Shown: positions 55-9,919 of the stretch, in pieces | How positions within the stretch are numbered: position 1 is the first letter of the stretch | Layout: each line of letters starts with the position of its first letter | The notes under the pieces: generated by a model | Database searches by the model: none | Told to the model about the DNA's origin: nothing | What the model saw: only the letters and a program-made list of their open reading frames with translations | Assembly (NCBI RefSeq): GCF_004762035.2 | Contig: NZ_SIJK02000024.1 | Span: 1-64,000, forward strand | From: Candidatus Chloroploca mongolica | GTDB lineage: Bacteria > Chloroflexota > Chloroflexia > Chloroflexales > Chloroflexaceae | Direction of reading: 5' to 3' | Length of the DNA stretch: 64,000 bases | Program-made: the position numbers and the translations under genes

Positions 55-143
55 GCCCTGGCGGGGTGGATGCTTCGCATGCCGTCGCCGAGGCGTTGAC
101 GCCGACAGGGTGGGCGTATGCATCATAATATGTCAAAGGTAAT

Positions 144-172: not shown

Positions 173-586
173 ATGAGCGATGAACTCTCGCCACCTCTTC
201 CGTCTCTCGCGACGATCATGACGGCTGCAGATGATCTGATGGTTCCCAGTGAGCAGGACGCGCCTTTGCTTCCGTTTCACTGGCCTGGTGACGAACCCCT
301 GACACCGGCATCGCTCGCTGCGTTGTTGGGGCTTGCCCCTGAGACCCCGGTGGAGCAGCGTGAGCTTGAGGCGTTCTTTGGCCCGTTAACCCGTACGCGC
401 TCCTGGCATAGCCTGGCTGACCATGCACTGGTCGAGCGTTTCGCCCACCTCCACGCGACGTTGCTGGCGACCTTGACCGACCCAGTCGTCTATCGACTTG
501 GCACGATCGAGATTCAGGTGGTGATTGTTGGGCGTGATGCGTCCGGCGCGCTCGTTGGGTTGCATACGACGGTGGTTGAAACGTAG
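173..586 (+). CDS. nuiA: NuiA-family nuclease A inhibitor
   Basis: This 137-residue protein resembles the sugar-nonspecific nuclease inhibitor NuiA of Anabaena. The shared landmarks, recalled from family knowledge, are the acidic mid-region, a QVYRLG-type strand (here PVVYRLGTIEIQ), and the C-terminal VVET ending. NuiA binds NucA tightly in the cytoplasm and blocks the active site. The gene sits directly upstream of a NucA-type nuclease: its TAG ends at 586 and the nuclease ATG is at 600, so the two are probably one transcript with the inhibitor made first. The start is supported by AGGAGG upstream of ATG 173. The first ~35 residues are low-similarity and may be a lineage-specific extension. 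I am fairly sure of the family. Confidence 0.85.
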   Translation: MSDELSPPLPSLATIMTAADDLMVPSEQDAPLLPFHWPGDEPLTPASLAALLGLAPETPVEQRELEAFFGPLTRTRSWHSLADHALVERFAHLHATLLATLTDPVVYRLGTIEIQVVIVGRDASGALVGLHTTVVET

Positions 587-599
587 GAGTCTCGTCCCT

Positions 600-1799
600 A
601 TGAACGTCTTTGTGCTTGCTCTGCCTCGTCTCACCATTTTCCTGTTGCTGCTCACCCTGCTCGCTGGCTGTGTTTCAGGATCAGCGCAGGTCACCGATGC
701 GAGTCGCCACCTTGCCCTGGGCAATCCGAGTGGGGCGGTGGTTGATGTCAGGCAGCCTACCAATTATCTGTTGCTGCGCAATCAGTATGTGGTTGGCTAC
801 CATCGGGATCGTGGTATCCCCAACTGGGTCAGTTGGCACCTGCAAATGAGCGATTTCGGTCCTGCTGAACGCTATAGCGGTTCCTTCATTACCGATCAGA
901 GTCTGCCGGAGGGTTGGTATCAGGTGACCCACGCTGACTATACGAGTTCGGGGTATGACCGCGGCCATATGACGCCTTCGGCTGATCGGACGGCGACGGA
1001 AGAAGATAATATCGCCACGTTCATCCTGACCAATATTTTGCCCCAGGCCCCCGACAATAACCGTGGCGTCTGGGCACAACTCGAAGAGTATGCCCGTGCC
1101 GTGGTGCGTGAGGGCAACGAGGCCTATATCATCGCCGGTAGTGCCGGAAGTTTGGGCACCCTGGCGCAGGGGCGGCTGACCATCCCCGAACATGTCTGGA
1201 AGGTCTTGCTCTTCCTGCCTGAAGCCGAAGGCGACGACGCCGCACGGGTGACCGCCGACACGATGGTGCTGGCCGTCTGGATGCCCAACGATAACAGTGT
1301 CGCGAACGCTTCGTGGCAAGATTATCAGACGACGATTCGTTGCCTCGAAGATCTCACGGGCTATGATTTTTTCTCTACCATCGAACCGACGCTCCAGGAT
1401 CTGATCGAAGGCCAGGGTTGTCCTGACGGCAAGCCCTACCGCGCTATGCTCCCGCTCGTCGTTGATGATGAACCTGCCCCGCCGCCGCCGGTCTTCGCTG
1501 GCTGCAACGTCGATCCTGGCCCCGGCGTCGCCCCTGAGCGCCCCGTGCGCATTGTCACCGTTGATAAAATTGCCGAAACCGTGACCCTCGAAAATGTGAG
1601 TGCGACTCCGATCAATCTGGATGGCTGGCGTATGTGCAGCATCCGGGGTGGACAGGATCATCCAATCAGTGGTATGCTCGAATCAGGGACGACGCGGGTT
1701 TTCCCTGGTCCAGACGCCAATATTTGGAGCAATAGCTCTTCTGATCCCGGGGCACTCTATGATGCCGAAGGCTATCTGATCAGCTATTGGCCCGATTGA
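600..1799 (+). CDS. nucA: NucA-type DNA/RNA non-specific endonuclease, lipoprotein with C-terminal lamin-tail-like domain
   Basis: A 399-residue nuclease of the beta-beta-alpha-Me (NUC1) family that cuts DNA and RNA without sequence preference. The start at 600 follows AGGAG at 585-589. It gives a clean lipoprotein signal (hydrophobic stretch, then LAGC with Cys24), so the mature enzyme should be anchored outside the cell. A longer in-frame start at 525 would bury the signal peptide. The catalytic motif DRGHM is at 120-124 with general base His123, followed by the metal-binding Asn in PDNNRGVWAQLE (around 151-162). A proline-rich linker near 310-320 leads to a C-terminal beta-rich domain of about 90 residues (VTLENVSATPINLDGW) that looks like a lamin-tail domain, often found on surface nucleases. 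It is paired with the upstream inhibitor. Confidence 0.9.
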   Translation: MNVFVLALPRLTIFLLLLTLLAGCVSGSAQVTDASRHLALGNPSGAVVDVRQPTNYLLLRNQYVVGYHRDRGIPNWVSWHLQMSDFGPAERYSGSFITDQSLPEGWYQVTHADYTSSGYDRGHMTPSADRTATEEDNIATFILTNILPQAPDNNRGVWAQLEEYARAVVREGNEAYIIAGSAGSLGTLAQGRLTIPEHVWKVLLFLPEAEGDDAARVTADTMVLAVWMPNDNSVANASWQDYQTTIRCLEDLTGYDFFSTIEPTLQDLIEGQGCPDGKPYRAMLPLVVDDEPAPPPPVFAGCNVDPGPGVAPERPVRIVTVDKIAETVTLENVSATPINLDGWRMCSIRGGQDHPISGMLESGTTRVFPGPDANIWSNSSSDPGALYDAEGYLISYWPD

Positions 1800-1808
1800 G
1801 AGGAATAG

Positions 1809-2762
1809 ATGCAATTCACCGGTCTTCACCATGTGACGGCCATTTCGGCCCGCATTCAGGCCAATTATCAGTTTTATACCCAGACGCTCGGGATGCGTCT
1901 GGTCAAGCGTAGTGTGAATCAGGACGATGTGAGTGCCTATCACCTCTTTTATGCCGATGCGAAGGGGTCGCCAGGCACTGACCTGACCTTTTTTGATTGG
2001 CCGGTACCACCCGAGCAGCGTGGTGGCCGTTCGATTACGCGTACCTCGTTGCGTGTCGCCGGTGCCGAGGCGATCACCTGGTGGTGGCAACATCTGCGTC
2101 ATTTGGGCGTCAAGGTTGGCGAACCCGCCGAAAGCGATAGCCGCCTGACCCTCGCTTTTGAGGATGGCGAAGGCCAGCGCTTGGCTCTCGTTGACGATGG
2201 CGAAGTCGGTTCGGCCTATCCATGGGAACGTAGCCCTGTGCCAGCGGCCTATCAGATCCGCGGCCTGGGGCCGGTCATGCTCAGCGTCCCCGACCTCGCT
2301 CCGACCGATGCCGTGCTCACCAATGCGCTCAATATGCGCCTCGTGCGTGACTATGCCCATCCCGATGATGCCCGTTCGACGGTACACGTCTATGCAATGG
2401 GTGACGGAGGCCCCGCAGCCGAGTTGCATCTCGCCGTGCAACCTCATCTTCCTCCTGCGCACCAGGGTGCTGGCGGGGTGCATCATCTTGCCCTGCGTAC
2501 CCCTGATGATGCCTACGACGCCTGGGCGCAGCGGCTACGAGCGCTCCGCATTCCCAACAGTGGCAAAGTCGACCGCTACTGGTTCCGCAGCCTCTATTTC
2601 CATATCCCAGGGGGCATCTTGTTCGAGATTGCCTCGGATGGCCCTGGTTTTGCCGTGGACGAAGACGAGGCGACCCTGGGCGAGAAGATTGTGCTCGCGC
2701 CCTTCCTGGAACCGCAGCGCGAAGCCATTGTGGCAAAACTCAAGCCGCTAAACGATGCCTAG
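1809..2762 (+). CDS. VOC-family ring-cleaving dioxygenase (MhqO-like)
   Basis: A 317-residue protein with two glyoxalase/bleomycin-resistance (VOC) modules. The first opens with GLHHVTAI, whose His is the usual first metal ligand. The second carries GVHHLALR near 225 and GGILFEIASDGPGF near 270, giving the second His and the Glu of a mononuclear metal site. This architecture is that of hydroquinone/catechol ring-cleaving dioxygenases such as MhqO and LinE. The substrate cannot be read from sequence. The gene follows the nuclease by 9 bases with a weak Shine-Dalgarno (GAGAGGA), so read-through from the nuclease promoter is plausible, although no functional link is obvious. Confidence 0.8.
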   Translation: MQFTGLHHVTAISARIQANYQFYTQTLGMRLVKRSVNQDDVSAYHLFYADAKGSPGTDLTFFDWPVPPEQRGGRSITRTSLRVAGAEAITWWWQHLRHLGVKVGEPAESDSRLTLAFEDGEGQRLALVDDGEVGSAYPWERSPVPAAYQIRGLGPVMLSVPDLAPTDAVLTNALNMRLVRDYAHPDDARSTVHVYAMGDGGPAAELHLAVQPHLPPAHQGAGGVHHLALRTPDDAYDAWAQRLRALRIPNSGKVDRYWFRSLYFHIPGGILFEIASDGPGFAVDEDEATLGEKIVLAPFLEPQREAIVAKLKPLNDA

Positions 2763-8455: not shown

Positions 8456-8492
8456 GCATAGGTATGGAGGGCTTTGCCCTCTATACCTATGC
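8456..8492. repeat. Intergenic hairpin, TTT loop
   Basis: 17-base arms (8456-8472 and 8476-8492) have one G-U pair and loop TTT. It lies between the DinB-like gene and the repeat protein. It has a three-base loop like the GCCAGC hairpins but a different tip (GGGC/GCCC). Confidence 0.85.
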
Positions 8493-8530
8493 GTTGCAGT
8501 GGTTCTGAACCTAGAAGGGCGAAGCATCCT

Positions 8531-9919
8531 ATGCCTGACGACTCGCAGTTTCACTCGGCTCTGCGCAAGCTTGATGAAGCCTTGCAGTCCCTTCCCGACG
8601 AGCCTTCCGAGGCCGATCGGGCGAGGATTCCGCTCACCGAGATGCTCACGCGTCTCGTCGTTGGCATCGTACTGCTTGGCCTCGATGCCCTCGCAGCACG
8701 CTCGGTGGCATGGGAAAACGAGGCTGGCCTTGTTCGCGATGCTTCCCCACCTGTGCCTGCCGCTGGTGAGCCGGGTTCGGCTCGTTTCCGCCAGGCGCTG
8801 ATCGGCTGGATCTTTGAGAGCGAGCAGCGGCTGCGTCCACAGGGCAGTCCAGTTGCCTGGTTGCGTTCGGTGATCACGTATCTGTTTGGGACGCTGTTTG
8901 CGGTGCTGATCGAGTTGTTGCCCTTGCCTCGCCCCGGTTTTCGTCGCACCAAACAGCCCCTCGCCGAGCCAACTGATGAAGAGACCCGCCGCTGGATCAG
9001 TCGTGGCCGTGACGAGGAAGTACAGAGTCGCCGCCTCGCCGCAGTCGCCCTGGAAGATGGGGTCAATCAGGCCATCATCTATCTCGCCCGTCGCCCTGCG
9101 GTCGCTCAGGCGCTTGGCGAAATTGTGCGCTCACCGGCGATGGACGATGCGGCTCGCCACCTTGTCGCCGGCCCGGTTGTTGATGAGGCGATCAAGCGGG
9201 TCATCGCCAGCCCGGCCCTCGATGATGTGATTGTCCGGGTCGGCCAGAGTCCGGCACTCGATCAGGTGATCACGCAGGTGGCACAGAGTCCGGCGCTGGA
9301 TGCGGTGATGCTGCAGGTTGCCAACAGCCCGGCACTTGATCAGGTGATCACGCAGGTGGCGCAGAGTCCGGCGCTGGATGCGGTGATGCTGCAGGTTGCG
9401 AGCAGCCCGGCACTTGATCAGGTGATCACGCAGGTGGCGCAGAGTCCGGCCCTGGATGCGGTGATGCTGCAGGTTGCCAGCAGTCCTGCGCTTGATCAGG
9501 TGATCGATCAGATTGCGCAGCGTCCCGCACTTGAGCAAGCAGTCAGCCGCATTGTGCATAGCCCGGTCATCGAAGAGGCCGTCAGCCACATTGTGCGCAC
9601 CCCGGCGATGGAGGATGCCGTCAAACATCTGGTTAGTACGCAGGCCATGAATGAAGCAATTGACACCCTGGCCCAATCGCCTGCCTTGGTCTCCCTTGTT
9701 ACTACCCAGGGTTCATCGCTTGCCAACGAGGTGCTTGGGCAGGTGCGTTCGCACGCGATCAAGACTGACGATGGACTCGAAGGCTTGCTGCGCCGTCTGT
9801 TGCGCCGTCGCCCGCGGGCAGAGCTGCCCGATGCCGCGCAAGGGTTGCTCGTCGATAGCGAGGCTCTCTCTGCGCGACGGCTCCGCTCACGGTGGAAAGG
9901 AGGCGCTGATGGACGTTAA
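8531..9919 (+). CDS. Protein with 13-residue tandem repeats, unknown function
   Basis: A 462-residue protein that I do not recognise. The N-terminal third has two hydrophobic stretches (around 37-60 and 115-138) that may be membrane segments. Residues about 200-395 are a tandem array of 13-residue units of the type SPALDxVIxQVAQ, each predicted as a short amphipathic helix after a Ser-Pro turn. The central units (239-316) are almost identical in pairs. The C-terminal region is basic (RRLLRRRPR). ATG 8531 has only a weak GAAGGG upstream; an in-frame earlier start exists at 8474. The last 11 bases overlap the RDD membrane protein gene, so the two are translated together and probably act together at the membrane. 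Confidence 0.65.
   Translation: MPDDSQFHSALRKLDEALQSLPDEPSEADRARIPLTEMLTRLVVGIVLLGLDALAARSVAWENEAGLVRDASPPVPAAGEPGSARFRQALIGWIFESEQRLRPQGSPVAWLRSVITYLFGTLFAVLIELLPLPRPGFRRTKQPLAEPTDEETRRWISRGRDEEVQSRRLAAVALEDGVNQAIIYLARRPAVAQALGEIVRSPAMDDAARHLVAGPVVDEAIKRVIASPALDDVIVRVGQSPALDQVITQVAQSPALDAVMLQVANSPALDQVITQVAQSPALDAVMLQVASSPALDQVITQVAQSPALDAVMLQVASSPALDQVIDQIAQRPALEQAVSRIVHSPVIEEAVSHIVRTPAMEDAVKHLVSTQAMNEAIDTLAQSPALVSLVTTQGSSLANEVLGQVRSHAIKTDDGLEGLLRRLLRRRPRAELPDAAQGLLVDSEALSARRLRSRWKGGADGR
9245..9520 (+). repeat. 78-bp tandem repeats inside the repeat protein
   Basis: Three nearly identical 78-base units start at 9245, 9323 and 9401, followed by a partial, more diverged unit from 9479. Each encodes two 13-residue helices. 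The low divergence at DNA level suggests recent duplication, so copy number may vary between strains. Confidence 0.9.

Follow-up and report, generated by a model that had tools for sequence, protein, structure and literature searches.

The nuiA-nuclease locus

The window (the whole stretch of 64,000 nucleotides of Candidatus Chloroploca mongolica DNA analysed here) carries near its start two adjoining genes on the forward strand, nuiA (173..586, 137 aa, C-terminal VVET) and a gene for a NucA-type DNA/RNA non-specific endonuclease that is a predicted lipoprotein (600..1799, 399 aa). For the first product, membership of the NuiA family had been proposed subject to a profile search, and this search placed it there: Pfam PF07924 (NuiA) matched with 112 bits (cut-off 22.1, E 2.8e-32), the alignment spanning residues 12–137 and profile positions 4–130 of 130, and the PDB NuiA structures 2o3b_B/1j57 matched at E ~1e-16. 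An NCBIfam search gave no match for either protein. E27, W78 and T137 of the window NuiA align with Glu24, Trp76 and the C-terminal Thr135 of reference NuiA, which we take to be the residues plugging the nuclease active site in the 2O3B complex; the C-terminal E134-T135 pair of the reference is also kept. Across the NuiA alignment the Glu24 and Thr135 equivalents are invariant and the Trp76 equivalent is found in at least 90% of rows. Residue numbers follow the Trichormus pair, in which NucA has 274 aa and D121, and NuiA has 135 aa and E24, W76 and T135; both are near-identical to the proteins in the crystal structures. Values of dN/dS of 0.15–0.18 across three Chloroploca genomes indicate purifying selection on nuiA. 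Signal peptides were judged by eye and with a hydrophobicity scan, without a trained predictor, and by these means neither a hydrophobic stretch nor a signal peptide was seen at the N-terminus of the window NuiA, which is accordingly annotated as cytosolic. The protein is expected to bind and inhibit a NucA-type nuclease. A candidate nuiA promoter (102..129, forward strand) was proposed on a weak match to the sigma-70 consensus (9/12) alone.

The nuclease was assigned to the NucA type, as the initial annotation had it, by Pfam PF01223 (Endonuclease_NS, E 6.2e-49) and by its closest solved structures, Anabaena NucA 1zm8/2o3b_A (E ~5e-73), with EXOG, EndoG and Serratia nuclease far behind (E 1e-6 to 1e-19). 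The DRGH catalytic motif and the metal-binding Asn, Glu and Arg positions of NucA are retained, and all seven positions checked (R93, D121, R122, H124, N155, E163 and R167), which together presumably make up the NucA catalytic site, are present in the window nuclease. The match to the cyanobacterial motifs had been called close, a generous word given identities of ~32% for the inhibitor and ~46% for the nuclease to a cyanobacterial pair near-identical to the crystallised one. The nuclease is also under purifying selection (dN/dS 0.11–0.15 across the three Chloroploca genomes), and its sequence suggests that it cuts both DNA and RNA.

The longest open reading frame of the nuclease begins at TTG 525, within nuiA; this start was dropped because of that position and because translation from ATG 600, the likely start, yields a clean lipoprotein signal and has a Shine-Dalgarno-like sequence in front of it. 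From ATG 600 the N-terminus reads MNVFVLALPRLTIFLLLLTLLAGC, a predicted lipoprotein signal peptide (600..671, forward strand, translation read by eye) with the lipobox LLAG-C (Cys24). Genes for Lgt and LspA were found in the C. mongolica genome, and lipid anchoring at the surface, as first annotated, is plausible. Lipoboxes (IVGC, LIGC, LMGC) are present in several NucA proteins of cyanobacteria as well, so that an anchored nuclease would be no novelty of Chloroploca.

A proline-rich linker is followed by a C-terminal lamin-tail-like domain (1470..1796, forward strand), likewise anticipated in the initial annotation. The window tail by itself (residues 313–394) scores 22–24 bits against PF00932, with 22.2 in the Pfam search, under the cut-off of 34.3, while related C-terminal domains match this family at E <= 0.01 in 28/28 cases (best E 5.2e-11), and the AlphaFold2 model is all-beta and confident (pLDDT 91.4). 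Solved structures in the PDB searched with the lamin-tail profile gave no match. In the same order 27 further copies lie at, or a few residues from, C-termini; they are carried by NucA-type nucleases, by SNase-type nucleases and by FPETG..WERNGG..FGFP repeat proteins, or stand alone after a linker, and most carriers have signal-like N-termini. The domain is a reused part. Fusions of such domains to secreted DNases of halophiles, where an aid to DNA binding was proposed (PMC4486849), and a PADLOC model named 'SNc+LTD' (PDLC01096) exist, and the fusion in the window therefore fits known nuclease architectures. Here the domain probably helps the nuclease to hold nucleic acid or cell-envelope material.

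At the junction of the two genes (584..602, forward strand) the nuiA stop codon TAG runs into the Shine-Dalgarno-like sequence TAGGAG, with 13 nt between the stop and ATG 600. The same overlap of stop and ribosome-binding site is found in five genomes (the window, G001, G002, G013 and G417). The two genes probably form one operon with the inhibitor first, in agreement with the original proposal. Nine nucleotides downstream of the nuclease follows a gene of the glyoxalase/dioxygenase superfamily (1809..2762, forward strand; PF00903, E 3e-19), which is possibly co-transcribed with the pair; it is kept after the nuclease in both Chloroploca congeners, whereas the flanks compared in the other genera, which were shorter, did not contain it.

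Two repeats were observed in the window. The half-palindrome GGTGTA(G/C)GGGCACCCCTTGCGGGTGCCC at positions 1–58 recurs at 112 places in the genome (<=1 mismatch; control 0), with one copy directly upstream of nuiA and several at or near contig ends, and is an interspersed palindromic repeat. The open reading frame at 8474–9919 contains 39-bp/13-aa tandem repeats at 9243–9566 (SPALDQVITQVAQ / SPALDAVMLQVA), with up to 93% matches at a 78-bp period.

Distribution and gene order of the pair

A NuiA 93% identical to that of the window is found in its close relatives, Ca. Chloroploca sp. Khr17 and Ca. Chloroploca asiatica B7-9, the genome of the latter having reportedly been described in its own paper. 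A survey of Chloroflexota for linked nuiA and nucA, suggested when the locus was first annotated, found NuiA in 14/400 genomes, all from the order of the window, and NucA-type nucleases (E <= 1e-20) in exactly the same 14. The nuclease thus accompanies NuiA in 14/14 genomes and is found in 0/386 without it (7 genera against 0/217), although these cases share ancestry within the 7 genera and relatedness makes any significance optimistic. The surveyed genomes are samples, several of them metagenome-assembled genomes (MAGs); genome contigs were scanned with a narrower NuiA alignment, and genes counted as linked if they lay no more than a few kb apart. One MAG from a denser sample (G024) has the nuclease with nuiA undetected, so that either the inhibitor is not strictly indispensable or the assembly is incomplete. 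Elsewhere, NuiA matches were obtained in 111/340 genomes of the cyanobacterial class and in 12/345 of the Bacteroidota class to which the Pedobacter relative belongs. Viral contigs searched with NuiA contained no relative, and no publication about a chloroflexotal NuiA turned up in the literature collection searched.

Gene order differs between lineages. In the Chloroflexaceae with the pair, 11/11 have both genes in tandem, inhibitor first, with 1–18 nt from stop to start. Among linked cyanobacterial pairs 42 are convergent (tail to tail), six are divergent and one is inhibitor-first at a distance of 683 nt; at a further 39 cyanobacterial loci the short stretch examined contains no nuclease. 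Convergent pairs are also found in Pontibacter, in Pedobacter and in two sister families of the window's order (f2 and f4), while one Bacteroidota locus, whose NuiA match is weak, has the inhibitor first. Both genes are retained but unlinked in the family of Herpetosiphon (f3, Herpetosiphonaceae), and coupling is therefore not essential for the system; the names of the families f1–f4 are in part our assumption, beyond the record titles. As the relatives are mostly convergent, the inhibitor-first operon is most simply read from these arrangements as a derived state of the Chloroflexaceae. A single origin of the tandem order in this family is compatible with the tree test (p-AU 0.41), and the 11 tandem cases are consequently not independent. 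Two independent tandem origins had been suggested by the NuiA tree, in which G311 and G422 group with Bacteroidota; the idea was dropped, as one clade was not rejected and the nuclease tree keeps the G311 and G422 rows inside Chloroflexota. All Chloroflexota rows of the nuclease tree lie on one side of a 99% branch, and inheritance of the pair within the order looks vertical.

Two of these loci have irregular frames. In G013 (L007 1498–2499, reverse strand) the nuiA frame continues upstream without a break into a hexapeptide protein resembling gamma-carbonic anhydrase (333 aa altogether), either a fusion or a missing stop, and in G007 (L006 1704–3100) the nuclease is split across two overlapping frames, either by a frameshift or by an assembly error.

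Proposed role of the inhibitor-first operon

The locus is very probably the Chloroflexaceae version of NucA/NuiA, in which an exported, nucleic-acid-degrading nuclease would be translationally coupled to its cytosolic inhibitor. The operon would yield NuiA first, and ribosomes ending nuiA would already stand at the start of the nuclease because the nuiA stop lies inside the nuclease ribosome-binding site; with this layout the nuclease should therefore rarely be made without fresh inhibitor. Nuclease folding inside the cell would be blocked by NuiA, whose C-terminal threonine and Glu24 equivalent would fill the active site, where the metal is bound, in the manner seen in the crystallised NucA-NuiA complex. 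The remaining nuclease would leave through Sec, receive its lipid at Cys24 and stay anchored on the external side of the membrane; there it may break down DNA and RNA outside the cell as a source of phosphorus, nitrogen and nucleosides. Protection of the cytosol before export, an element of the initial annotation, is retained as a supported part of this scheme. Against it were counted the nuclease without nuiA in G024, the unlinked genes of the Herpetosiphonaceae and the weak match of the predicted promoter.

In Anabaena, NucA is a nuclease with a signal peptide and NuiA inhibits it (PMC4390845, PMC4890671). The Chloroploca pair most likely functions likewise, with a potent nuclease sent outside and an inhibitor kept in the cytosol. 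The Chloroploca pair shares with that of Anabaena (Nostoc) sp. PCC 7120 (2O3B, 1J57/1KTU, 1ZM8) both families, the seven catalytic residues, Glu24, Trp76 and the C-terminal Glu-Thr, as well as the predicted export of the nuclease, often with a lipobox. It differs in gene order, the Trichormus pair (near-identical to that of Anabaena) being convergent and 8 nt apart, in the proline-rich linker and lamin-tail-like domain, and in being without sign of a plasmid, as the 89-kb contig on which it lies, part of a draft genome, also carries housekeeping genes (e.g. Lon). Serratia nuclease, EndoG and EXOG (PF01223) have the same catalytic DRGH domain at the much greater distance given above, and we know of no NuiA partner for them. 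The secreted SNase nucleases of the 'SNc+LTD' model and the DNaseI-LTD proteins of halophiles (PMC4486849) are exported nucleases that likewise end in a lamin-tail domain of this type, behind unrelated catalytic domains. For neither group is an inhibitor gene known, to our knowledge, whether SNase or DNaseI is the catalytic part. The NucA/NuiA family is already known, and the inhibitor-first arrangement is a new variation on it. The textbook cyanobacterial nuclease-inhibitor pair is thereby extended to filamentous anoxygenic phototrophs, and the same two proteins are wired in two ways, convergent and separately driven in most lineages and inhibitor-first, probably translationally coupled, in Chloroflexaceae; since both wirings exist, a comparison of the two can directly test whether NuiA serves to protect the cell before export.

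The most serious alternative, although an unlikely one, accepts that the pair works as described and denies the gene order any regulatory meaning, the two genes having come together in one shuffle and stayed close by descent. A single tandem origin and the non-independence of the 11 cases agree with this reading; against it speaks that gaps of 1–18 nt persist and that the overlap of stop and Shine-Dalgarno sequence is shared by several genera whose sequences have diverged strongly.

Much less credible is the competition role raised in the initial annotation, by which the two genes form a toxin/immunity unit, the nuclease being delivered to other cells while NuiA shields the producer and its kin. 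Nuclease and inhibitor do adjoin, inhibitor first, as in some antitoxin-toxin operons, and NucA domains serve as toxins elsewhere, Chloroflexi included, according to the parts of PMC3482391 available to us. The window nuclease, however, is a 399-aa lipoprotein with a lamin-tail-like end, in which Pfam finds Endonuclease_NS and LTD alone and no RHS, LXG, PAAR, filamentous-haemagglutinin or other delivery domain; there is no array of extra immunity genes beside the pair, and NuiA matches none of the defence-system models. The immunity partners named for Tox-NucA in those same parts of the source are Imm36, SUKH and NTF2, with NuiA unmentioned there (PMC3482391). The competition role was therefore not upheld, and export of a nuclease held in check by its coupled inhibitor is preferred.

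A plasmid-stabilising (addiction) or abortive-infection module settled in the chromosome, considered because cyanobacterial pairs are often on plasmids (23 plasmid records contain NuiA, all cyanobacterial among the matches listed and many with an adjoining nuclease), is highly improbable, given a nuclease signal peptide in both phyla, which is unexpected for an intracellular killer, the lack of a relative among the viral contigs searched and the vertical-looking inheritance in the order.

A second NuiA and related loci

A second NuiA paralogue is encoded at G000:C105:107669-108052 (L016 1375–1887), unlinked to any nuclease and adjoining a dGTPase-like gene, and is conserved in all three Chloroploca genomes (G000, G001 and G002; L016, L017 and L018). 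It begins with the signal-like leader MRVLVWMVVVVTCTLAFAHPPVGA behind an AGAGAGG ribosome-binding site, matches PF07924 with 75.6 bits and, over its domain, the solved NuiA structures at E ~1.5e-15, retains all three active-site-plugging residues and is under purifying selection (dN/dS 0.17–0.25). Its predicted structure reached pLDDT 94; in alignments for structure prediction plasmid-derived rows were excluded and another locus set was used. The NuiA tree places this protein as a paralogue within the Chloroflexaceae, together with a second G417 copy that has no visible leader. A cytosolic form is possible via an in-frame TTG before the domain, where there is no good ribosome-binding site. A signal-like N-terminus is also present on the NuiA of an unrelated Actinomycetota MAG, the assembly of which contains no Endonuclease_NS match. 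Tentatively, Ca. Chloroploca may make two NuiA proteins for two compartments, the operon-coupled cytosolic one and an exported one that would act outside the cell, either modulating the surface nucleases of the cell itself or inhibiting nucleases of neighbours (e.g. cyanobacteria). Were the exported form real, microbial mats, in which DNA outside the cells serves as food as well as scaffold, would contain an extracellular protein that inhibits nucleases.

Three further observations concern related proteins. Six cyanobacterial loci (L159–L164) encode weakly matching, divergent proteins of ~220–420 aa, most with at least two NuiA-like domains and with no linked nuclease within the stretch read. 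A second NucA-type nuclease of the C. mongolica genome (L019, G000:C104; 609 aa from ATG) has no nuiA beside it within the stretch read and contains two FPETG..WERNGG repeat segments and the same lamin-tail domain. Finally, several exported proteins of these bacteria have, in linkers or close to the C-terminus, a short motif (F/Y/M)LPL(I/V), which reads MLPLVV in the window nuclease (residues ~281–288), FLPLIR in the putatively exported NuiA (L016) and FLPLVI and YLPLVI in relatives (L057, L095), and is a possible processing or sorting signal.
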